Shown here: positions 3,818 through 40,393 of the stretch, piece after piece
Layout of the letters: every line of letters begins with the position of its first letter
How positions within the stretch are numbered: the first letter of the stretch is position 1
Assembly (NCBI GenBank): GCA_951799425.1
Contig: OX637398.1
Coordinates: forward strand, 5,017,501-5,081,500
Length of the DNA: 64,000 bases
Direction of reading: 5' to 3'
From: Ilex aquifolium
Lineage: Eukaryota; Streptophyta; Magnoliopsida; Aquifoliales; Aquifoliaceae
Notes under the pieces: model-generated
The model's database searches: none
Told to the model about the DNA's origin: nothing
Seen by the model: only the letters and a program-made list of their open reading frames with translations
Translations under genes and position numbers: made by a program

Positions 3818-4069
3818 GTTACACGCAACTATAACTATAACCTCCAGTTAGCATAGAAACTAATGCTCTAACCTGTTTTGGTTAGTCTTTGATTTTTTCA
3901 TATTTCTTCCCCAGTTCTTTGGCTTCTATTTATCTGTTTTTGCTTTTTTCTTTGTCCCATCATCTTCGTCTGAAAAAAAAAAATTCTCTCAGGGACATAG
4001 ATACCTCGGAATATATCTGAATAATTCCAATTTGGGTCTTCTTCTCTGGCGGCGCTTCTTCCATTTTAG

Positions 4070-4208: not shown

Positions 4209-6967
4209 ATGGGTAAGGATGAAAAAGATCATGAGGATACAAAGGTGGGTTCTGGGTTAAATGAGAATCGTCAAGAAGGGTGTTCTTCAAAGGAAGGGAA
4301 GGGGAAGAGATTGTGGAAGAAAGTGAAGTACCAGCTAGTGGAGTACCACTCTTTGCCTGGGTTTTTGAGGGACAATGAGTTCATTCTTGGTCATTATCGG
4401 TCCGAATGGCCTTTGAAACAGGCTTTACTCAGCGTTTTCACCATTCACAATGAGACCCTCAATGTATGGACGTAAGAATTCTGTTCTGAATGCTTCACCG
4501 ACTTTCATTTAATTTCAATAACATTCATGGCTTTCCTTAGTTTTTTGATTCAGATTAGTAACTTTTTGTGAGCCTTATCTGTTTTAAGGTGAATCTTTTT
4601 GTTTAAGATTTCAATCTATTAAATTAGACAAGTGCTAGACAACCTTGTCTGACCTAATTAGTTACCAAGCCATGTGACAAGTCATCAACTACTTGAGATC
4701 ATACGAAAATGAGAATGGTCAGCCGAGTCTCTAATACACTTTGAGGAATTAATGTCTAGTACATAGAGCTGCATTTTTTCACCCTAGTTTCTTGAGGTTT
4801 AAGGTCCACATGGTATCATTACTTAAAACTAATTGAGGATGTAGTCGAAGTTGTTTTACCTGAAAAGGATGAATGCCCTTTATGTCTACTTGTGTCCACT
4901 TAGAGGCATGTAAATCAGCTGGTTATAAGACGACATATTCGTTTTCAATCACAAACACTTTTTTTTCTTTTACAATATGTATCGGATAGCTGATAATTCA
5001 ATACATAATCTCAGGTTTCTTTGTGCTCTCTTGAATAATTCAGTTTTTAATTATTCAACCATGTCGTCTAATGGGGGTCTGGTCTAAATTATTAAACTTG
5101 CGGTGTTTGTATATATATATATATTTTTGGGCTGGGGTAGAGAGTAGGGGTAGGATTGGATGCTAGAAATTATCTATTTGTTGAACAAAATTTTTAGGTG
5201 TCCATAACGATTGCCTGGTGAAACCAAATACTATGAACAATACTACCCATCACAAGGTTGCAGTTCATTTCCTATAATGTGATTTTTCTGCTGCTATTAG
5301 TTCCTTTAACTCCTCTGGATGTCTGTAACGAAGGCTGTTGACATGAATATTAATTCTGTACGCTCACATGTATGCCATTGTCCAATATAATTTCTATTAT
5401 TAATGATATTGCTGTTATTATTAATATTTAGCTAAGCCAAAATAGTTGGGATAAGGCTTTGTTAGTTGAGTAGAGTTGAGTTGAGTTAAACTGTTCTGTG
5501 CTATTATGCTACATCTACTCTAAGCATAAGCTGTTGTGTGACACAGGCATTTAATAGGGTTCTTCCTCTTCCTTACCCTGACCATTTACACTGCAATGAA
5601 GATTCCCAAGTTTGTGGATCTCCCTACCATACACCATTTCCCTGATGTGTTGAGAAAAGCCGATCTGCACAAACTGCATGCAGAACTTTTGACTTGTCTT
5701 CCTTCCTTGCCAAACATGCCTGATTTGCAAACATTTCGGGAGGAGTTAAAGACGTCAATATTGCCTTCCATGGATTTGCTACCATCACCATCGAACTGGT
5801 ATATTGTAGAATTGCTCACAAACTGTTTGCCTGAGCGATTCTCCCATTCCAACCATACTGATGTTTGTCTTTTGGTAAGGTCCTTTTTTGGTTGATGATC
5901 ATCTTTATAGTTTATAAGCTCACTATTTATGAGAAAATGCATCATTTAAACGTCTTCAGAACTTTTAAATTCCATCTGCCTGTCCTGAATGTTATCAAGC
6001 GGCTCAATACTCAATTGGATGGTTAATTGATGGGGTAATGCTATGCTTACCAAATTTCCATCCCAAATGATGTGGCACAGTTTTTCACCATCAGATAAAT
6101 GGATCCCATTAATATTCAATGACGGAGATTGTGCCCCATTATTTAGTATGGAAGATTTGGTAAAATTTTTTGGTAAGCATAGCATTTTTCTAATTGATGT
6201 AGCCTCTCATTTCATCCTATCTGTGCAGCCATACGCTATTGCCTTTTCTTCTGCCTTCCTCCCTGAAATTTATAATGTGGCTAATATTTTTCGCATGATT
6301 TTATCATATGCAGCTTAGCATGAAAGAGGAATTGGCAAACATAATTGCTCCCTTGATGAAGAGGCCAATCACACGATGGCCATTCTTTGCTTTCTTGGGT
6401 GGAGCCATGTTTTGCTTGCTAGCCAGCAGCATATGCCATTTGCTCTCATGTCACTCACAGCGTCTATCATGCATCATGCTTAGGCTTGACTATGCTGGCA
6501 TTGTTGCCCTCATATCAACTTCCTTTTATCCTCCTGTCTACTATTCCTTCATGTGCTACCCCTTCTTCTGCAATCTTTACATGGGATTCATAACACTCCT
6601 GGGAATTGGCACAATCCTGGTTTCTCTCCTTCCTGTGTTCCAAAGCCCCAAATATCGTGGCCTTCGTGCATGCCTCTTCTCCGGGATGGGTCTAATGGGG
6701 ATAGCACCCATTTTCCACAAGCTTATCTTGTTCTGGCATCAGCCTGAGGCACACCATACTACTGGATATGAAATTTTGATGGGGGCTTTCTACGGTCTTG
6801 GAGCGCTCGTTTATGCAACGAGGGTTCCAGAGCGATGGATGCCCGGGAAATTCGACATTGCTGGACATAGCCACCAACTTTTTCATATATTGGTGGTGGC
6901 AGGGGCCTACTCTCATTACCGGGCAGGACTAGTTTACCTCAAATGGCGAGACCTGGAAGGGTGCTAA
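4209..6967 (+). CDS. HHP4: Heptahelical transmembrane protein 4-like (PAQR/adiponectin receptor family)
   Basis: Three coding exons, 4209-4471, 5547-5874 and 6314-6967, join in frame at GT-AG borders to give 414 residues. The N-terminus is charged and cytosolic (KEGKGKRLWKKVKYQLVEYHSLPGFLRDNEFI), followed by seven hydrophobic segments starting with HLIGFFLFLTLTIYTAM. The PAQR metal-site motifs are present: CHLLSCHS (His near 244), LDYAGI, and GHSHQLFH (His near 384 and 388). The plant-specific loop after the first helix (KFVDLPTIHHFPDVLRKADL) matches the HHP4 type. Plant HHP proteins are membrane proteins tied to hormone and sugar responses; HHP4's ligand is not established to my knowledge. 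The start is the first ATG after the predicted leader intron. The gene looks intact; a MITE sits in intron 2. Confidence 0.95.
6033..6190. mobile_element. 158-bp MITE in intron 2 of HHP4, Mutator-like by TSD length
   Basis: The terminal inverted repeats are GGGTAATGCTATGCTTACC at the left and its near-complement ending GGTAAGCATAGCATTTTTC at the right. The 9-bp direct repeat TAATTGATG flanks both sides (6024-6032 and 6191-6199). A 9-bp target duplication is typical of Mutator-like elements. There is no coding capacity. It lies about 120 bp before the exon 3 acceptor and does not break the splice sites. Confidence 0.85.
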
Positions 6968-9595: not shown

Positions 9596-10019
9596 CTAGT
9601 TATTGTCTGTGCCTGAAGGCACAGAGTAATAAAAAATGGTAAACAATAAACATATTTGTGGTGGTGACGGTGGCCGCAATGGTGGTGGTGGCGGCGACGA
9701 TGGTAGCGGTGGCGGTGGTGGCGGCGGTAGTGGTGGCGGTGGTGGTGGGAGTGGTGGTGGTAGAAGTAGTGGTGAGACGGTTTTATATACTATTTTTTTT
9801 TTTTTTTAAGTACTTATGAAAAATAATTTTTATAAGTACTTTTAAAAAGTCACTCCAAATACACCCTTAGAGGCCTATTTTTCCTATTAAATTTAGGATG
9901 TTAATATTAGCCGTTAGATTAGCTTTAAAGTAAAATTTAAAGCGATCTGAACCGCGAAAAGCAAAAGTCATTTTGTTTGTCTTTTAAAATTTGAATTGTA
10001 AGCTATTTTATTATATAGA
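9596..10019 (-). mobile_element. Non-autonomous Helitron, copy 1 (internally deleted)
   Basis: On the minus strand the element begins A|TCTATATAATAAAATAG and ends with a perfect 8-bp-stem hairpin, CTGTGCCT-TC-AGGCACAG, followed by ACAATAACTAG|T. TC at the 5' end, a subterminal hairpin and CTAG at the 3' end, inserted between A and T without a target duplication, is the Helitron signature. It holds a roughly 120-bp GGN-rich core and a poly(T) tract. It lacks about 75 bp found next to the hairpin in copies 2 and 3. No Rep/helicase is encoded. Confidence 0.85.
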
Positions 10020-12317: not shown

Positions 12318-13141
12318 CTAGTTATTGCCTGTGCTTGAAGGTACAAAATAATAAAAAATGTAAACAATAAACATATTTGTATTTATATCCAAAATCAAAT
12401 TACAAACATAGAAGAGAGATAAATGAATTTAAGCATCGGTTGTAGTGGGGGTGAGAGGTGGTGGTGGTAGGAAACGGTGATGGTTGTGGTGGATGGCAAT
12501 GACCGTGGTGGCGGCGACGACAACGGTAGCAGTGGCAGCAACGGCAGTGGTGGTGGTGGTTTCGACGGTGGTGGCGGTGGTGGTGGCGATGGCGATGACG
12601 GTGGTGGTGGTGGTGGGGGTAAGGGTGGCGGCGACGGCAATGGTGGTGGTGACGACAGCGGTGGTGGTGGCGGTGGCGGTGGTGGCGATGGCGGCGACGA
12701 TGGTGGTGGTTGCGATGGCGACTGCGGCGGTGGGGGTAGCGGTGGAGGCGACAATGGCGGTGGGGTGGCGGCGGTGGTGGTGGAGGCAGTGGTGGTGGGG
12801 GGTAGTGGCGACGTTGGCGGCGGCGGCGGCGGCGACGACGATGGTGGTGGTGGTAGAGGTAGTGGTGGTGGGAGTGGTGGTGGTAGAGGCAGTGGTAGGG
12901 CGGTTTCAAACACTATTTTTTTTTTTTTAAAGTACTTATGAGAAATAATTTTTTGAAATACTTTTAAAAAGTCACTTCAAACACACCCTTAGGGGCCTAT
13001 TTTTCCTATTAAATTTAGGGTGTTAATATTAGCCGTTAGATTAACTTTAAAGTAAAATTTAAAACGGTCTGAACCGCGAAAAGCAAAAGTCATTTTGTTT
13101 ATCTTTTGAAATTTGAACTGTAAACAACTTTATTATATAGA
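12318..13141 (-). mobile_element. Non-autonomous Helitron, copy 2, with a 470-bp GGN core
   Basis: The minus strand begins A|TCTATATAATAAAGTTG and ends CTAG|T after a hairpin close to that of copy 1. The flanks match copy 1 over about 240 bp, including AATATTAGCCGTTAGATTA and GAACCGCGAAAAGCAAAAG. The core, about 12450-12900, is almost pure GGT/GGC/GAC triplets on the plus strand. This makes long open frames in several phases of both strands, including poly-Pro and poly-Gly. These frames are composition artefacts and not genes. Confidence 0.85.
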
Positions 13142-13360: not shown

Positions 13361-14447
13361 TATATATAACAAAGTACAATACAATTCAAATTTCAAAAGA
13401 TAAACAAAATAACTTTTGCTATTCGCGGTTGATATCTCTTTCAATTTTATTTTAAAGTTAATCTGACAACTAATATTAACACTCCAAATTTAATAGGGAA
13501 AATAGACTCTTAAGAGTGTGTTTAGAGTGACTTTTTAAAAGTGTTTTTAATACTTATAATTCTCATAAATACTTAAAAAAAAAAGTAGTGTTTGGAACCA
13601 CCCCACCACCACCACTACTATCATCACCCCACCACCATCATCACTACCACCACCACCCCTCATCACCCCACCACCATTACTTTTACCACCGCCACCCCCC
13701 CTCACCACCAAACTACCCCCTACCATCATCACCACTACCACCTCCACCGTCTCCACCCCACCATCACCACCAATGTCACCACCCCACCCACCGCCTCACC
13801 ACCACCAATGTCACCACCTCACCCATCGCCTCACCACCACCACCTCGCCCCTTACCACCACCATCACTGTCATCACCATACCACATCTACCATTACCACT
13901 GTCGTCACCCCACCACCACCACCACCACCACCACCACCACCACTACCATTATCGCCCGACCACCACCATCACCACCACCGCTACCACTGTACTACCACTG
14001 CCGTCGCCACCCCACCATCACATCTGCCACAACAACCACCACTGCCTCCTACTATCACCACCGTCGTCATTACTACTGTCGACACCCCACCACTATCACC
14101 CCCTACCGCCCGACCACCACCATCCCCACTACCCCTACCACCGTCACCACCACCCCTACCGTCACTGCCATTGCCCAACCATCACCCCTACCACCACTAC
14201 CCCTATCTCCTCACCACCACCTCTCATGACCATCACCACCACCACCGCCATCGTCACCGTCGCCGCCACCCCACCACCGCCATTACCACCCACCATCATT
14301 ATCATCGTTCACTCCCACTATAATTGGTGTTTAAATTTATTTCTCTTTCCTTTATATTTGTGATTTAATTTTAAATGTGAATACAAATATATTCATTGTT
14401 GACCATTTTTTTATTACTCTGTGACTTCAGATACAGGCAATAACTAG
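13361..14447 (+). mobile_element. Non-autonomous Helitron, copy 3, inverted to copy 2
   Basis: The plus strand starts A|TATATATAACAAAGTAC, where the usual TC is TA. It ends CTGTGACTTCAGATACAG, a weakened hairpin, then GCAATAACTAG|T. The flanks match copies 1 and 2 in reverse orientation. The core, about 13600-14320, is CCA/CCN-rich and the longest of the three. Its open frames (His-, Thr- and Pro-rich) are artefacts. It is 219 bp from copy 2, so 12.3-14.4 kb forms a large imperfect palindrome. Confidence 0.8.
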
Positions 14448-15524: not shown

Positions 15525-16910
15525 ATGAAGTTACCGGAGCTTTCTCAGTTTCAAACAACCTCCATGACTAAGCAAAATGGACGAGACAAATCGTCGTCGC
15601 TTCTCTCCAACGGCTTCCTCTTCGTTGGTGGAGCTATGGTGGCTCTACTATTTGTTTGGGCTCTTGGTTCCTTCATAAGCCCAAGCCCTGACCCTAGCCA
15701 CAGTTTCTCAACTGGAGTCACCGAGTCTAAACCCAGAGTTGCCTCAGAGGACGTGAACGTCTCACCACAAAATTACGCCGTCGATGGGCATGGTTCCAAC
15801 CTGCACTACGACCCACCTGAGCGGACGTTCTACGACGATCCCAAACTAAGCTACACTATAGGAGAGCCCATTAGAAACTGGGACGAGAAGAGAAAAGAGT
15901 GGCTGAAACACCATCAATCATTCGCCGCCGGAGCAGATGAACGAGTCCTAATGGTGTCAGGTTCGCAACCTTCGCCGTGTAGAAACCCAATTGGCGATAA
16001 TTTACTGCTGAGGTTTTTCAAGAACAAGGTTGACTACTGTCGAATCCACGGCTACGACATTTTCTACAACAACGTGTTGTTACAACCGAAAATGTTCTCA
16101 TATTGGGCGAAAATACCAGTGGTCCGAGCCGCCATGGTGGCTCACCCGGAAGCTGAGTGGATCTGGTGGGTCGACTCGGACGCTGCCTTCACCGACATGG
16201 ACTTTAAACTCCCGTTAGACCGATACAGAAACCACAACCTCGTCGTCCACGGTTGGTCCCACTTGATCTACGACAAGAAGAGCTGGACTAGCATCAACGC
16301 CGGCGTGCTCTTGATCCGGAATTGCCAGTGGTCGTTGGACTTCATGGAAGTGTGGGCCAGCATGGGCCCACAAACCCCAAAGTACAATCAATGGGGAAAA
16401 ATCCTCCGATCAACGTTGAGCGACAAGATGTTCCCGGAATCAGATGATCAATCGGGTCTGGTTTATTTACTGTTGAAAGAGAGAGATAAATGGGGCGATA
16501 AGGTTTACCTAGAGGGCGAGTACTATTTTGAAGGGTACTGGTCGGATATTGTTGGGACGCTTGAGAATATCACCGACAAGTATGCGACTATAGAGAAAGG
16601 GGTGCGCAGGTTAAGGAGGCGGCATGCTGAGAAGGTGAGTGAGAGCTATGGTGCGCAGTGGGAGGAGTATCTTAAAGACGCCGGGAACGGGAAGGGTAGT
16701 TGGAGACGGCCGTTTATCACACACTTCACGGGGTGTCAGCCATGTAGTGGGGACCACAACCAGATGTATTCTGGGCAGAGTTGCTGGGAAGCGATGAAGA
16801 AGGCATTGAACTTCGCTGATAATCAGGTGCTACGCAATTATGGGTTTATGCACCCGGACCTACTGGATTCTTCCTCCCTCTCGCCTTTACCGTTTAATTT
16901 CCCGGCTTGA
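15525..16910 (+). CDS. GT34 galactosyltransferase, galactomannan galactosyltransferase-like (GMGT/MUCI10 type)
   Basis: Single exon, 461 residues. It is a type II Golgi protein: short cytosolic tail, one membrane helix (31-50, FLFVGGAMVALLFVWALGSF), a variable stem, then the GT34 catalytic domain. The DxD metal/UDP-sugar site is WWVDSDAAF (Asp217, Asp219). Other family blocks are VDYCRIHGYDIFYN, HPEAEWIWW, SINAGVLLIRNCQWSLDFM, SDDQSGLVYLL and RRPFITHFTGCQPCSGDHN. Relatives transfer galactose from UDP-Gal onto (gluco)mannan; Arabidopsis MUCI10/GT6 and GT7 are close. The xyloglucan xylosyltransferase branch of GT34 is less likely. The first ATG is preferred over Met14 because the pseudogene at 21.3 kb shows a matching SQFxT segment upstream. 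It lies tail to tail with that pseudogene. Confidence 0.93.
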   Translation: MKLPELSQFQTTSMTKQNGRDKSSSLLSNGFLFVGGAMVALLFVWALGSFISPSPDPSHSFSTGVTESKPRVASEDVNVSPQNYAVDGHGSNLHYDPPERTFYDDPKLSYTIGEPIRNWDEKRKEWLKHHQSFAAGADERVLMVSGSQPSPCRNPIGDNLLLRFFKNKVDYCRIHGYDIFYNNVLLQPKMFSYWAKIPVVRAAMVAHPEAEWIWWVDSDAAFTDMDFKLPLDRYRNHNLVVHGWSHLIYDKKSWTSINAGVLLIRNCQWSLDFMEVWASMGPQTPKYNQWGKILRSTLSDKMFPESDDQSGLVYLLLKERDKWGDKVYLEGEYYFEGYWSDIVGTLENITDKYATIEKGVRRLRRRHAEKVSESYGAQWEEYLKDAGNGKGSWRRPFITHFTGCQPCSGDHNQMYSGQSCWEAMKKALNFADNQVLRNYGFMHPDLLDSSSLSPLPFNFPA

Positions 16911-18655: not shown

Positions 18656-18921
18656 TCACATTCCCACAGAATCAAACGGCAGGGGCAAGACAGAGGCAGA
18701 ATCAAGTAAATCAGGGTGCACCAAACCATAGTTCCGAAACACTTGATTATCCGCGAAATTCAACGCCCTCTCCATTCCTCTCCAGCAAGAATCACCACCG
18801 TACATTGGATTGTGGTCCCCACTACACCGCTGACACCCCGTAAAATGCGTTATAAACGGCCGTCTCCCCGTATCCTTACCAAATCCCTCCTGTTTGAGGT
18901 ACTGCTCCCTCAGCGCACCAT

Positions 18922-20217
18922 GGGTGTGTTTGGGTAGTGGGTTAAGGTGGGTTAACTCCATAAGGATAGGATAATAAAGCAATGGGGCTCACAAAACCTT
19001 TGTTTGAAAAGTCAAAATTGAGGTAGGATATAAATCCCGGGTCTATCCTTGACCCGGATGCTACAGTGCTTTTTAACCCTGCTACATGGGTTAAAATTAA
19101 CCCACCTCCACCCTGGGTTTCAATCCCAGCCGACGGGTTAAGAATGGTAATTACATATTTACCCCACCTTCCTCTCTCTCGCTCGCTTCCAGAGATGCTC
19201 TCACTCTCTGTTTGTCTCCTCTCTCTCTCTCTCGCTTTGAGAAGGCAACAAAGTCCAAGCCTAGGGTTTCTGCTGGGATGGGTTTGGGTGTCGGAGTGGA
19301 CCGAATGAAGAAGAGATCTTCACCAGCACCAGCCCTAACCTCGAATGCCTTTGGGTGAATTATCGAGTTGCCAGAAGATTGTAGCTAAGATGAACCCAGT
19401 AACCAAAAATGCACCCAATCGAATTCCAAAAATCTCTGGCATTCGCCAAGAATTTTTGAACGATCGCTCCGATAGAATCGTCATTTTGATCCAGAGAGGG
19501 TTTGCAAATGTGGGCACCATTGAAGGACTCGAATCGTTTGCTGTTCCAGAGACCAATTTTTCTCGTGAAATGCTTGCACTGATTGCTTCTTTCAACGATA
19601 AATTATGGGTTGAACTTGGGGATTGATTTGGATCATTATCTCGAGCTTTGTTTCGCTTCAAATCCTGCCATGATTTGTTGAATTCGACTAAGCTTTTGGT
19701 TCCACCAGGTGAGCCTTCTAATTCTCGAATGAGATCGAGAGCGAACTCGGTTCGATTCTCGTTCGCCGGTATCGGATGGCCGAAATCGGAGAAGAACAAC
19801 GGTAGATTCGCCGGAGATCCACTGTAAACAGTTTGACCACGAGAGAAAAATATGGTTGTGGTGGTGGGTGTTCTGTTGTGGTGGTGGCGTTTCTGTTGTG
19901 GCAGTGGTGGCGTTGGGTGTTCTATTGTGACAGTGGTGGTTCTATTGTGGCGGTGGTGGCGTTTCTGTTGTGGCAGCGGTGGTGGCGATCACTATAGAGT
20001 GGTCTGGTTCATCAATGGGTATCAATGGGTATAATGGTAAATATCTACAAAAATCAAGTGGAGTCCATCCCATTCAATTGTTTCTTGCCAAACAATGGTT
20101 TGAGTTGGATGGTATACATAACCCATCTAATTAAGTGCCTGAATGAGTTGGGTGGGATGGGTTAGGATACAAAAAATCCAATTCATTTCTATCCTTGTCG
20201 ATTATCCAAACACACCC
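18922..20217. mobile_element. Pack-type TIR transposon (PIF/Harbinger-like) with captured ABCG fragment
   Basis: Perfect 12-bp terminal repeats, GGGTGTGTTTGG at the left and CCAAACACACCC at the right, are flanked by the 3-bp duplication CAT (18919-18921 and 20218-20220). Removing the insert and one CAT restores the GT34 sequence around ESHGALREQ. The TIR and 3-bp duplication suit PIF/Harbinger, though TWA is the usual target. Inside are subterminal GGGTTAA/TTAACCC repeats, a 514-bp ABCG gene fragment and a GGT-rich patch at 19855-19985. No transposase is present, so it is non-autonomous. Confidence 0.87.
19337..19852 (-). pseudogene. Captured ABCG (white-brown complex) half-transporter fragment
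   Basis: The minus strand reads without stops for about 170 codons: IFLSRGQTVYSGSPANL, then GHPIPANENRTEFALDLIRE, a variable linker, SLKEAISASISREKLVSG, and GAFLVTGFILATIFWQLDNS. This matches the linker after the nucleotide-binding domain and the first membrane helix of plant ABCG half-transporters (ABCG1/2/6/16/20 clade). Walker motifs and later helices are absent. It lacks a family start codon and ends shortly after NSPKG. The open frame is intact, which suggests recent capture, but it is not a working transporter. Confidence 0.88.
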
Positions 20218-21836
20218 CATGGCTCTCGCTCACCTTCTCATCGTGTCTCCTCCTTAACCTGCGCACCCCCTTCTCTATTACCGCCTATTTCTCGGTGACG
20301 TCATCAAAAGTTTTCACTAAGCCCAACCAGTACCCTTGGAAGCAGTACTCATTCTCTATATAAATTTTGTCACGCCATTTGTGTTTCTGTGTCAATAGCA
20401 AGTAAATCAGAGCCGATTGATCGTCTGATACTTGGGTTGATTTGTCTTTGAGGGTTGATGATAAGATGTGGCCCCACTCTTCGTAATTTGGGTTTATTGG
20501 GCCCATATTGGCCCATTCTTTCATCAAGTCCATGGACCACTGACAGTTTCGGATGAGAAACACCCCGGCATTGAGCCCGACCCAACTACGGCTCTCGTAG
20601 ATCATACAGGACCAGCCGTCCACTACGAGGTTGTGGTTTTTGTACTTCTCTAATGGCAGCTTGAACTCCATGTCGGTGAAAACGGCATCCGAGTCGACCC
20701 ACCATATCCACTCCGCCTCTGGGTGGGCCAGCATTGCGGCCCGGATTAAGGGTAATTTGGCCCAATAAGAGACCATTTTTGGGTGTAGGAAGGCACTGTT
20801 TTAAAAGATATCGTAGCCGTGGATTCTACAATAGTCAACCTTATTCTTGAAAAGCCTCAGCAGGAGATGATCACCGATTGGGTTCTTGCAAATCGACGGT
20901 TGTGATCCTGTCACCATGAATATTCTCTCTTTTGCACCGGGGGCAAAGGATGGATGATGTTTTAGCCACTCTCTTCTCTTTTCGTCCCAGCTTTTGATGG
21001 GCCTATCTAACGAATAACTGAGCATTGGGTTATCGTAGATAGTTCTGTTAGTTGGGTCATCGCGCAGGTTAAAACCCTGTGCATCCATGGAGAAATCATG
21101 GACTCTGGAGCTTTCTGTGGCTAATGTGGGCTTCGGCCTTGTCATGAATAAATCAGAAAAACTAGAGTCGGTAATGGTATAGGTAGATGACCAAAGAGAA
21201 CAACCCACAAAAAGAACTAAGTATTGCTATAGAAAAAGAAGGTAACTTCTCTTTCAGAAAGCAGCAGTACTCTTTAGTGTTTGCCAGGGCCTGTGAGGTC
21301 TTGAACTGAGACATCTCCGAGAAACCCGTTACGAACCGGAGATTTTGGTACATTTTATACTTGTTTTGAAGAAGTATTACTAAGCATTTGGTTGAGTGTG
21401 ACTCTCATTAGAAGTTATAGAAGCTGGAAAAAGTTGCTAGGTTAACAAATGGATGGTAAAACTAAAATCTGGGTTTCCAGCAAGCAGATAATACTGACTT
21501 AAATGATATTTCCTAAGTTTCTTTCACACTACGTTTCGTTTCGGCCATTTTCATATGGTAACAGAAAGCCATGTTTGCCATCTTCATCATTATGGTATTG
21601 ACAATTATTATGCTGACTGGAAGCTAATGACAACGAAAAAAAAAGGGCAAATTTATAGCATATCAAACGTGTATGCAAATCTACTCAAAATCTGTTCATC
21701 CAAACTATCACATAAACATTAATCATTACAATGTGAATAATACTTTTGAATATATGAGTGCGGCGCAAATTAAAAAGAAGCAGCAGCAGAACAGCAAAGA
21801 ATCACAAATTCCAGATTCCACGACGGAAGAACTTAC

Positions 21837-24194
<2,358 letters not shown>

Positions 24195-36400: not shown

Positions 36401-39400
36401 ATGACTAGACTAGAAGAAGCTAATAGTGTCAAACCCGAAAAATTTAGTGGTCAAAATTTTCGTAGGTGGCAAAAACAAGTTCGTTATTGGTTGACCGTAC
36501 TAGGCTTAATCTCTGCTATAGAAGAACCTCAACCTAATCAAGAGTTCTCTTCATGGTATACCCCTGAACAAATTGAATATCACTGTTATAATAGGATTCT
36601 AAGTACTCTTTCTGACCATCTTTATGATGTCTACCATAATACTACGACAACCGCTAAAGAGCTTTGGAACACTTTAGAGGCAGAGTATGGGATTGTTGAT
36701 GCAGGAATTAAACGGTTTATGATCTCTAATTTTAATAGTTATAAAATGGTGGAGAATAAACTCGTTGGTGATCAAATTCATGAATATCAAGAATTTTTGA
36801 GGAAAATTGAAAAGGGTGGAACTACATTTAGTGAAGATTTTAAAGTTTCAAGCTTAATTGACAAACTTCCACCTTCTTGGGATTATTTTGCTAAGACCCT
36901 TAGGCATAAGCAAGGAGAGTTAACCTTAACCCAAACTATAAATGCTCTTAGGGTTGAAGAGAAGCATAGGGTTAGTACTAACTCACAAAATGAGAGACCT
37001 CCTAAGATAAACCTAGTGGAAAATAGTAACAACAACCATAACAATTTCCGACCTAGGGGAAGAAATTTTAAGAATAAGAGGTTTAATGGTCGTCCTAATA
37101 ACGGTCAAAATCAAAACTATCAAAACAACAACAACAACAACAATAATAATAATAAGTTCAAGGGCTTAGGAAGAGAGAGGATGCCTTGCTTTGTTTGTGG
37201 ACGAACCAATCACTTGGCTAAGGATTGCTACTACAAGAAGACTGAACCGTATAAGCCAAAGCCCCGGCCAAATCAAAGAGGTCCAAGAGCCCAAGTCAAT
37301 GTTCTAGTGGATGGAGATAATTCCGCCGAACCCTTCTTTAGGTATAATCGTTTCCTAGTAAATTTTATCTATCAAGAAAAAGATTGGTGGTTAGACTCTG
37401 GGGCTAATATACATGTTTGCTTTGATCGTGATTTATTTAAATCTTATCAGAAATCAAGTGGAGGAAGTGTAACGCTAGGAAATGATTCCGTCGCACAAGT
37501 ACTTGGAATTGGAGACATAGAGTTAAAGATGACATCTGGGAAGACATTGATCTTGAAGGGAGTGCGACATGTTCCTGAAGTTAGAAGAAATTTAGTTAGT
37601 GGGTCGTCCTTAGTCCAACAAGGTTATAAGGTTGTAATGGAGTCAAATAAAGTTGTGATAACTAAGAATGATATATTTGTTGGCAAAGGATATATTTGTG
37701 ATGGTTTATTTAAATTGAATGTACTTTCGGAAGTTAATGAAATTTTTCATCAAGTTTTCAATGTTGAATCTTGCAATGTATGGCATGGAAGATTAGGACA
37801 CATAAGTCTAAAGAAAATCAAAAGGATGATGGATCTCAATCTTATTCCCAAATCTCATGTAGATTTTAAACATAAATGTGAAATTTGTGTACAAGCCAAA
37901 CAAACTAGAAAACCTCATAAAAGCGTAGAAAGGAATACCCAACTTCTAGAACTTATACATAGTGATGTATGTGATTCTAGTAGACCGCCAACAAGAGCCG
38001 AAAATAAATATTTTGTGACTTTTATAGATGATTGTTCTAAATATTGTTATATTTACCTTATCAAGAACAAAGATGAAGTATTTAATAAGTTTAAGCTATA
38101 TAAAAATGAGGTTGAAAATCAATTAGAGAGAAAAGTGAAAAGACTAAGGTCCGATAGAGGAGGTGAATATACTCTAACTGATCTTAGTACATTTTGTGAA
38201 GAACATGGAATAATACATGAAGTGACTCCTCCTTATTCCCCTCAATCAAATGGGATAGCTGAAAGAAAGAATAGAACCTTAATGGATATGGTAAATTCAA
38301 TGTTGAATAGTTCCGGCTTATCTGATAATTTGTGGGGGGAAGCTATACTTAGTGCTTGTTTCATCTTGAATAGAGTATATGTTAAAGATAATGAGAAAAC
38401 TCCATATGAGATATGGAAGGGAAGAGTTCCTAACCTTAGCATCATGAAAATGTGGGGGTGTTTAGCTAAGGTAGCTATTCCCGAACCAAAGAGAAAGAAA
38501 ATAGGTCCTAAGACCGTAGATACTGTTTTTGTAGGATATGCCCAAAATAGTAGCGCTAATAGATTCTTAGTTTTTAACTCGGAAATTAGTGGAATTTCAA
38601 ACAATACTATAATTGAATCTAGAGATGCTACATTTTTTGAAGATATTTTTCCTTTTAAAAATACAATGCCTAGTCAAGTAAGAGAAACACCTTCAACTAA
38701 TGATCAACCTTCTACTAGTTCTATTGTTCCCGTAGAGAAAAATATAGAACAACATGTAGAGTTAAGGAGAAGTAAAAGACCAAGAATAGAGAAGAACTTA
38801 GGAGAAGGATTTTTTACTTTTCTAGTAGAAGGAGAGCCAACGACATATAAAGAAGCTATGTCTTCTATAGATGCACCTTTTTGGAAGGAGGCTATTAATA
38901 GTGAAATTGAATCTATATTGCTTAATAATACTTGGGAGATAGTAGAATTGCCTCCTGGAAGCAAAGCTATTGGGTGTAAGTGGGTATTTAAGAAGAAACT
39001 AAAACCTGATGGAAGTATAGATAAATATAAAGCTAGATTGGTGGCTAAAGGATTTACTCAAAAGAAAGGGATAGATTATTTTGATACATACTCGCCTGTG
39101 ACTAGTATTACTACCATTAGAATATTAGTAGCCCTAGCATCTATCCATAACTTAGTAATACATCAAATGGATGTCAAGACCGCTTTTCTAAATGGGGATT
39201 TAGATGAAGAGATATATATGGAACAACCTGAGGGGTTTATGGTAAAAGGACAAGAACATAAGGTTTGTAAGTTAGTGAAGTCTTTATATGGTCTTAAACA
39301 AGCTCCCAAACAGTGGCATGAGAAGTTTGATAAAGTAATTCTAGAGTATGGTTTTCAAATTAATGAAAGTGATAAATGTTTGTACTACAAGGATAGTGAT

Positions 39401-40393
39401 GTTGGTTGTGTGATTTTATGTCTCTATGTAGATGATATACTAATTTTTGGGACAAACTTGGAGATTGTTAATGATGTTAAATCTTATTTATCTACTAAGT
39501 TTGATATGAAAGACTTGGGAGAAGCCTATGTAGTCTTGGGAATGAAAATAGAGAAAACATCTAATGGAATATCTCTAAGTCAGTCTAGTACCATAGAGAA
39601 AATGTTGAAAAAGTTTGGTTTTTATGATAGTAAGTTTGTATCAACACCATATGATCCTCATGTACATTTGAAGAAAAATAAAGGAGAACCGATTTCACAA
39701 TTGAAGTACTCACAAATGATTGGATCTTTATTATACATAGCAAATAAGTCTAGACCTGATATCTCGTATGCTGTAGGGAGACTAAGTAGATATACACATA
39801 GTCCGAGCAAAGAGCATTGGGTTGCCTTAGAGAGAGTTTTCAAGTATCTTAAAGGAACCTTAGATTACTCTTTATGTTATAGTGGATTTCCTAGTGTAGT
39901 TGAGGGCTTTAGTGATGCAAATTGGATCACCGATAGTTTAGATATAAAATCCACTACTGGCTATGTCTTTTTGTTAGGAGGAGCAGCCATATCTTGGGGA
40001 TCTAAAAAACAAACCCTAATATCAAGAAGTACTATGGAGTCAGAACTTATAGCCTTAGATACCACGTGTGCTGAGGCTGAGTGGATAAAGAATTTATTAC
40101 TAGAGATACCTCTAGTGGAAAAACCCATACCTGCCATTTCATTACATTGTGATAGTAAGGCAGTGATTGAGCTTGTGAAGCAAAATCATAATAATAAAAA
40201 GATGAATAGACATATACAAGTGAGATATAAATCAATAAAGAAAATGCTAAGTAAAAGCATAATCTCACTAGACTTTGTGAAGTCTGAACTAAATATAGCT
40301 GATCAGCTAACTAAAGGGCTTTCGAGGAAAGCTATCTCAGAACTGTCGAAGGGGATGGGCTTAAGCCCACAAGGGAGTCACCTAGGGAGGTAA
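36401..40393 (+). CDS. Copia Gag-Pol polyprotein, intact
   Basis: One uninterrupted frame of 1330 residues in standard Copia order. Gag (UBN2 type, KPEKFSGQNFRRWQKQV) is followed by the zinc knuckle CFVCGRTNHLAKDC at about 263. The protease site is WWLDSGANIHVC at about 330. Integrase has the HHCC zinc domain (HGRLGH...CEIC), DDE core with SDRGGEY and QSNGIAERKNRTL. Reverse transcriptase has KWVFKKKLKPDGS, MDVKTAFLNGDL and the catalytic YVDDI at about 1009. RNase H has GFSDANWITD and STMESELIALD. It makes the virus-like particle and copies and integrates the element. All catalytic motifs I can check are present. Lineage is probably Tork-like (inference). Confidence 0.97.
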   Translation: MTRLEEANSVKPEKFSGQNFRRWQKQVRYWLTVLGLISAIEEPQPNQEFSSWYTPEQIEYHCYNRILSTLSDHLYDVYHNTTTTAKELWNTLEAEYGIVDAGIKRFMISNFNSYKMVENKLVGDQIHEYQEFLRKIEKGGTTFSEDFKVSSLIDKLPPSWDYFAKTLRHKQGELTLTQTINALRVEEKHRVSTNSQNERPPKINLVENSNNNHNNFRPRGRNFKNKRFNGRPNNGQNQNYQNNNNNNNNNNKFKGLGRERMPCFVCGRTNHLAKDCYYKKTEPYKPKPRPNQRGPRAQVNVLVDGDNSAEPFFRYNRFLVNFIYQEKDWWLDSGANIHVCFDRDLFKSYQKSSGGSVTLGNDSVAQVLGIGDIELKMTSGKTLILKGVRHVPEVRRNLVSGSSLVQQGYKVVMESNKVVITKNDIFVGKGYICDGLFKLNVLSEVNEIFHQVFNVESCNVWHGRLGHISLKKIKRMMDLNLIPKSHVDFKHKCEICVQAKQTRKPHKSVERNTQLLELIHSDVCDSSRPPTRAENKYFVTFIDDCSKYCYIYLIKNKDEVFNKFKLYKNEVENQLERKVKRLRSDRGGEYTLTDLSTFCEEHGIIHEVTPPYSPQSNGIAERKNRTLMDMVNSMLNSSGLSDNLWGEAILSACFILNRVYVKDNEKTPYEIWKGRVPNLSIMKMWGCLAKVAIPEPKRKKIGPKTVDTVFVGYAQNSSANRFLVFNSEISGISNNTIIESRDATFFEDIFPFKNTMPSQVRETPSTNDQPSTSSIVPVEKNIEQHVELRRSKRPRIEKNLGEGFFTFLVEGEPTTYKEAMSSIDAPFWKEAINSEIESILLNNTWEIVELPPGSKAIGCKWVFKKKLKPDGSIDKYKARLVAKGFTQKKGIDYFDTYSPVTSITTIRILVALASIHNLVIHQMDVKTAFLNGDLDEEIYMEQPEGFMVKGQEHKVCKLVKSLYGLKQAPKQWHEKFDKVILEYGFQINESDKCLYYKDSDVGCVILCLYVDDILIFGTNLEIVNDVKSYLSTKFDMKDLGEAYVVLGMKIEKTSNGISLSQSSTIEKMLKKFGFYDSKFVSTPYDPHVHLKKNKGEPISQLKYSQMIGSLLYIANKSRPDISYAVGRLSRYTHSPSKEHWVALERVFKYLKGTLDYSLCYSGFPSVVEGFSDANWITDSLDIKSTTGYVFLLGGAAISWGSKKQTLISRSTMESELIALDTTCAEAEWIKNLLLEIPLVEKPIPAISLHCDSKAVIELVKQNHNNKKMNRHIQVRYKSIKKMLSKSIISLDFVKSELNIADQLTKGLSRKAISELSKGMGLSPQGSHLGR

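Follow-up and report, generated by a model that had tools for sequence, protein, structure and literature searches.

The window analysed here, a 64,000-nucleotide stretch of Ilex aquifolium DNA, contains a 1,296-bp unit (18922-20217) that, judged by its ends and its relatives, is a non-autonomous PIF/Harbinger-type Pack element. It carries a captured piece of an ABCG half-transporter gene and sits in a GT34 pseudogene, so that the original prediction, a Pack-type, PIF/Harbinger-like TIR element with an ABCG cargo at such a site, is upheld in all these parts. We consider it very probable that a PIF/Harbinger Pack element captured the ABCG piece once, by template switching, and that the cargo was then spread by transposition.

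Table 1. Features of the Pack element and of its insertion site, in window positions
Feature	Position	Strand	Basis
Pack element	18922..20217	.	TIRs and TSD in the sequence; matches at other loci start or stop at element positions 1 and 1296
TSD CAT, left	18919..18921	.	Uninterrupted GT34 paralog L053 has a single CAT here
TSD CAT, right	20218..20220	.	CAT flank; comparison with L053
Left TIR, GGGTGTGTTTGG	18922..18933	+	Sequence
Right TIR, CCAAACACACCC, reverse complement of the left (12/12)	20206..20217	-	Sequence
Exon piece captured from an ABCG half-transporter gene, about 171 codons	19340..19853	- (sense)	95% to L013 3948-4464; ABCG16 E=7.2e-62
GGTGG-rich minisatellite native to the element family (limits approximate)	19854..19992	+	
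GT34 pseudogene, 3' part (C-terminal frame)	18659..18919	-	18670-18921 75% identical to paralog L053
GT34 pseudogene, part open between its two in-frame stops	20288..20800	-	PF05637 E=7.8e-37
GT34 pseudogene, part open ahead of the first stop	20804..21199	-	PF05637 E=3.4e-8

The perfect 12-bp TIRs and the 3-bp CAT duplication on both sides of the unit, claimed at the outset, can both be read in the sequence. The TIR, GGGTGT-GTT-TGG, fits the motif G(N)5GTT described for the PIF/Harbinger superfamily (PMC2213677). Besides other frames of 50-101 codons, the element has three open frames, the cargo frame among them, in which a scan found no transposase match.

The host site was likewise correctly identified as a GT34 pseudogene. 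Both pieces to the right of the element match Glyco_transf_34 in Pfam (Table 1). The piece to its left has no Pfam match at E<=0.01 and aligns to the GT34 paralog L053 (75% over 252 bp). Apart from the element, the GT34 reading frame at the site holds two in-frame stops, and this copy is therefore a pseudogene independently of the insertion. The frame is indeed continuous once the element and one CAT are removed, as had been claimed, but the 1,299 bp removed are a multiple of three, so the restored phase alone proves little and the paralogs offer a better test. A search with the right flank found three other places in the genome (L053, L054 and L055). Joined without the element and one CAT, the window flanks show 77% identity to L053 in a 238-bp alignment that has no gap across the site, which is the stronger evidence; L054 (75%, 6 gaps) and L055 (70%, 7 gaps) are likewise contiguous across it. 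By these alignments, all three are GT34 paralogs without the insertion. L053 corresponds to window 15525-16910, an open GT34 gene of 461 aa. It lies about 2 kb from the pseudogene, and the two form a local duplicate pair.

When the whole element was searched against the genome (800,232,872 bases), the best 40 of 496 candidates yielded at least 113 matching pieces, and all copy numbers given here are lower bounds for that reason. The 39 places retrieved comprise 37 element places and two ABCG genes (L013 and L016). The two ends were analysed in 29 of the 37 element places and in the window copy, giving 30 copies; two clear ends were not evident in L023, L025, L034, L037, L038, L040, L043 and L045, which were left out. 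By eye, a few copy ends were shifted, by 24 bp in L030 and by 1-2 bp in the others. Both TIRs are present with at most two mismatches in 29 of the 30 copies, L030 being the failure, and 24 of these 29, the window copy included, have a matching 3-bp TSD. Pairing the left and right flanks of different copies as a chance control gave 56 matches of 3 bp in 812 pairs (6.9%). Other TSD lengths were rejected (2 bp, 6/29; 4, 5, 6, 8 and 9 bp, each 0/29). The check for further copies with the same TIR has thus found them, together with their 3-bp duplications. Counted over the genome, a 16-base end pattern is found 251 times on one strand and 248 times on the other, against 0 and 1 occurrences of the same pattern in reversed order.

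The TSD of PIF/Harbinger elements is 3 bp long and typically TTA or TAA. In the present family, TAA or TTA accounts for six of the 24 matching TSDs, and the other 18 contain at most one G or C; the window copy has CAT. The target consensus over the 29 copies is palindromic, CYC-TWA-GRG, and appears to resemble the extended palindromic target of maize PIF, CWCTTAGWG. One copy, L009 (1276-3025), has its left part doubled in direct order, as if a copy had inserted into or beside another.

A transposase-bearing relative is also found in the genome. The search with PF13359 gave at least 150 matches (150 of 932 candidates scored), and four PF13359 loci near a family-type TIR, out of 18 places first selected, were examined. 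One of them, L048 (657-9011), spans 8,355 bp, has TIRs with 2 (left) and 0 (right) mismatches of 12 and the TSD TGT/TGT, and contains DDE_Tnp_4 (1.4e-16; partial, positions 66-158 of 158) and Myb_DNA-bind_3 (5.3e-10) domains. Its similarity to the window element covers 208 bp on the left (72%, E=7e-23) and 86 bp on the right (75%, E=3e-8), and copy L028 aligns to its right part over 442 positions at 80%. The similar ends, combined with the DDE_Tnp_4 and Myb/SANT domains, indicate that the element family is PIF/Harbinger. We regard L048 as a relative, not as a proven helper, because its left TIR has two mismatches of 12 and the match to its transposase domain is partial. The suggested search for a PIF transposase with matching TIRs has recovered this one, with similar TIRs and a partly matched DDE_Tnp_4. 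The remaining loci, L049-L051, each have a family-type right end, but in none of them did the stretch examined show a left end whose flanks match.

The cargo itself lies antisense in the element. The minus-strand frame 19338-19988 is open over 217 codons, and its residues 44-216 match Arabidopsis ABCG16 (PDB 8wtm; the E-value in Table 1 is for the whole sequence). In Pfam, ABC2_membrane is matched only below threshold (21.3 bits against a cut-off of 26.9), and since this match spans model positions 4-45 only, the cargo is mostly the region before the membrane domain. The ABCG identity originally proposed thus stands, with limits differing slightly from the 19337-19852 then given. The expected host parent was found as well: L013, on contig C18, has an intronless open frame of 771 aa (775 codons from stop to stop), and its paralog L016 is 80% identical to the cargo. 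Searching the genome with only the cargo as query produced 14 matches. They fall in the window copy, in six further copies of the element, one of which is matched in two pieces, in the parent and its 80% paralog, in three places at 67-68% and in one short fragment.

The seven ABCG-bearing copies lie at separate loci, each between matching 3-bp TSDs, which attests past mobility after the capture, and all are on contigs other than that of the parent. On the right, the cargo of all seven stops at parent base 4464; on the left, four copies have kept the border, and in each of them the cargo begins at base 3941. A majority of the copies departs from the parent at 11 sites; at 10 of these every covering copy does so, and at one all but L009. 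At six of the 11, the copies carry the base of the paralog, and the change was probably on the parent side. At the other five, the covering copies differ from both the parent and the paralog, which places the change on the element side (L011 has a third base at one of them). As far as sequence comparison can tell, the common borders and these five element-side sites show a single capture followed by transposition to at least seven places. The same borders bear on the idea that the ABCG piece arose by processed or segmental gene duplication and is not transposon cargo. The intronless frame of the parent and a TIR-less ABCG fragment elsewhere (L070) would be compatible with such an origin; however, identical cargo borders inside one element type, in seven copies with separate TSDs, contradict plain duplication, and we give this idea practically no credence.

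The fragment in L070 (1544-1765, on C6) is short and decayed. It was considered as a further element copy and rejected, as there is no TIR-like site in 3,401 bp and a 22-bp match extends past the common cargo border of the parent. In L014 (1214-3455), an insert of about 800 bp interrupts the ABCG cargo, and the same 12 bp of cargo flank it on either side; the insert is perhaps another element with its own duplication. Two things are absent from the window copy: the native stretch from its position 423 to the cargo, present in L009, L010, L011 and L014, and the first seven cargo bases. A 5-bp overlap is seen at the joint.

The original prediction emphasized that the captured frame is stop-free. 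The frame is open, but this carries little weight. The full-length cargo frame is open in the window copy only, that is, in one of seven copies: L009, L010 and L011 have stop-making changes, the L014 cargo, besides its large insert, has a 1-bp loss, L015 is without 167 of the parent's 524 bp, and L012 is without 161 bp, with the remainder open. Of the 13 substitutions private to the window copy, 12 are transitions; 9 of the 13 are nonsynonymous and 4 synonymous. Neutral simulation of 13 changes under the observed mutation spectrum gave means of 8.7 nonsynonymous changes, 3.5 synonymous changes and 0.85 stops, and 41% of the simulations remained stop-free. Across the seven copies, C-to-T and G-to-A together make up 59 of 87 private changes, as would be expected of methylated transposon DNA. 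The changes in the window cargo fit neutrality, with no detectable constraint, and the open frame is on these grounds no evidence of function. Selection for the open ABCG frame, as a new peptide or exon, could be invoked for the roughly 171 open codons, in which the sole indel relative to the parent is 3 bp long. The closed or shortened frames of the other copies, the neutral-like changes, the frequency of stop-free simulations and the position of the window cargo in a pseudogene make such selection very improbable.

The family has acquired host sequence more than once. L017 (element 1134-2508, minus) contains a PTR2/NPF exon piece (2.6e-20) that is 97% identical over 461 bp to its best other place in the genome, L063. 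This piece has the sense orientation and continues the reading frame of the family's ATG leader (MGLGVGVDRMKKRSS...), the whole forming an open frame of 184 codons; the TSD of L017 does not match (TAA/TTT), and its right TIR is poorer. L018 (element 1081-2381, minus), with the matching TSD TTT, contains an EXO70 exon piece (5.5e-22) that is 90% identical to L057, a 654-codon EXO70 frame. The NPF and EXO70 cargoes are each known from one element copy. Three cargoes are a lower bound, the interiors of L027/L035 and of the remaining copies being outside the searches. The interior of L024, which is common to L031, was tried as a further cargo and rejected: it has at least 56 matches (40 of 102 candidates scored), and no single host gene is evident.

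The ABCG, NPF and EXO70 pieces lie at three different points, at about 441-588 of the cargo-free copy L019, each flanked on either side by native element sequence. Relative to L019, about 12 native bases are missing at the NPF piece and 1 at the EXO70 piece. The ABCG piece has borders that are blunt or overlap by 1 bp; because they fall in a repeat or next to one, its insertion point is ambiguous. Cargo and native sequence clearly overlap at three of the six junctions, over a length that varies with the cargo-free reference. The overlap is 9 columns at the left NPF junction, the first 6 of them exact, and at EXO70 it is 2 on the left and 3 on the right against L019, or 0 and 6 against L020. 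The remaining three junctions are blunt, overlap by 1 bp or have 1-2 extra bases.

We propose that a PIF/Harbinger family supplies transposase in trans to short non-autonomous copies sharing its ends. The GGTGG minisatellite of one of these copies would have received a stretch copied from a host ABCG gene, most likely via template switching during the repair of a break or stalled fork within the element, while the source gene retained its long open frame. The element with its cargo then spread by transposition to the seven or more places documented above, one copy inserting in a GT34 tandem duplicate with duplication of CAT. The native stretch and the seven cargo bases missing from the window copy may most simply reflect a later deletion, and the cargo is now decaying without detectable constraint. 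Template switching is favored because the cargo lies within native sequence with little loss and some apparent microhomology, and because the source gene was left open. Against it, junction overlap is clear at only half of the six junctions, and the ABCG insertion point is ambiguous. A further point against it is that gap-filling has been assigned in animals mainly to single-copy Pack-TIRs (PMC8277862), and the ABCG cargo is multicopy.

A different route has been published for Pack-TYPE elements, including Pack-PIF, by Gisby and Catoni (PMC8903248), in which two elements insert in tandem around host DNA, lose their inner ends and are re-mobilised together. The repeated left end of L009, where a left end is followed by a second, longer left part, fits tandem insertion and speaks against template switching, so that both routes may operate. 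For the cargoes described here, however, we consider tandem insertion unlikely. All three cargoes lie inside otherwise collinear native sequence with only the few missing bases noted above, and no TIR was seen by eye in the 30 native bases at each cargo border. A TIR-like site with two mismatches does occur about 50 bp left of the ABCG cargo (19276-19287), yet the same stretch is present in the cargo-free copies L019 and L020. The NPF and EXO70 pieces, at other internal points and with native flanks, also favor template switching over tandem insertion.

It is possible, though we hold it only tentatively and with some doubt, that this PIF lineage contains a break-prone internal stretch, an inverted repeat beside the GGTGG minisatellite, into which host exons are repeatedly written by microhomology-guided template switching. 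An inverted repeat, seen by eye, does adjoin the minisatellite inside the element, and the three entry points fall within about 150 bp of native sequence. The ABCG cargo is antisense to the element's leader, and dispersed antisense copies might, as a part of this same reading, feed small RNAs against the parent gene. If true, capture through such a stretch would be an equivalent in plants of the route proposed for Pack-TIRs of animals.

Capture by PIF-type elements was thought in the original prediction to be less described. The class was right, but such capture is already in print, and this family is a further example with unusually complete evidence. Pack-PIF elements, that is, PIF/Harbinger Pack-TYPE elements, are known from maize (Gisby and Catoni 2022, PMC8903248). 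Like them, the present elements are non-autonomous, have PIF-type TIRs, contain host coding DNA and form multicopy clusters with some members in gene loci; unlike them, they come from another genome and include three host cargoes in one family, each flanked by native sequence. PIF elements with transduplicated genic sequence, sometimes common to several copies as in our case, have been reported from grapevine as Pifvine-3 (PMC2528002). In Pifvine-3, the extra sequence forms an extended 5' part of elements that also have PIF coding regions, whereas that described here is in a short, transposase-less derivative. The accessible text of a 2026 review of plant gene capture (PMC13317346) contains no mention of 'harbinger' or 'pack-pif'.

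Animal Pack-TIRs share with the present family a cargo inside the element, interior breakpoints and microhomology at some breakpoints (PMC8277862). For these, gap-filling has been proposed mainly for single-copy cases, and fork switching followed by transposition for multicopy ones; among the single-copy cases, 160 (56.9%) lie within 15 kb of the parent (PMC8277862). In contrast to these single-copy cases, the ABCG cargo is multicopy, with every copy on a contig other than the parent's. By analogy, NPF and EXO70 would fall under the single-copy, gap-filling route and ABCG under the multicopy, fork-switching route.

The significance of the family lies in the combination, within one genome, of the parent gene, a cargo-free element, seven daughter copies, uninterrupted target paralogs and a transposase-bearing relative. 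With three cargoes in one family, the two published models of gene acquisition by TIR elements become comparable base by base. It is also a warning that Pack elements can be annotated as genes, since their cargo frames may stay open by chance.

Several other features of the window were recorded. TIR-like sites at 9855, 12977 and 13514, which lie in a repeat other than the element, were discounted by eye. A repeat with GGTGG-type tracts and a TGTGTTTGG-like segment was also seen by eye in three copies, one of them inverted, at 9620-9900, 12435-13050 and 13450-14320; its ends differ from those of the element. Adjoining the GT34 pseudogene, two open frames at 21837-24140 (minus) resemble, by eye, parts of a RuvB-like helicase gene. 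A 1,330-aa open frame at 36401-40393 has the look of a copia-type retrotransposon polyprotein.
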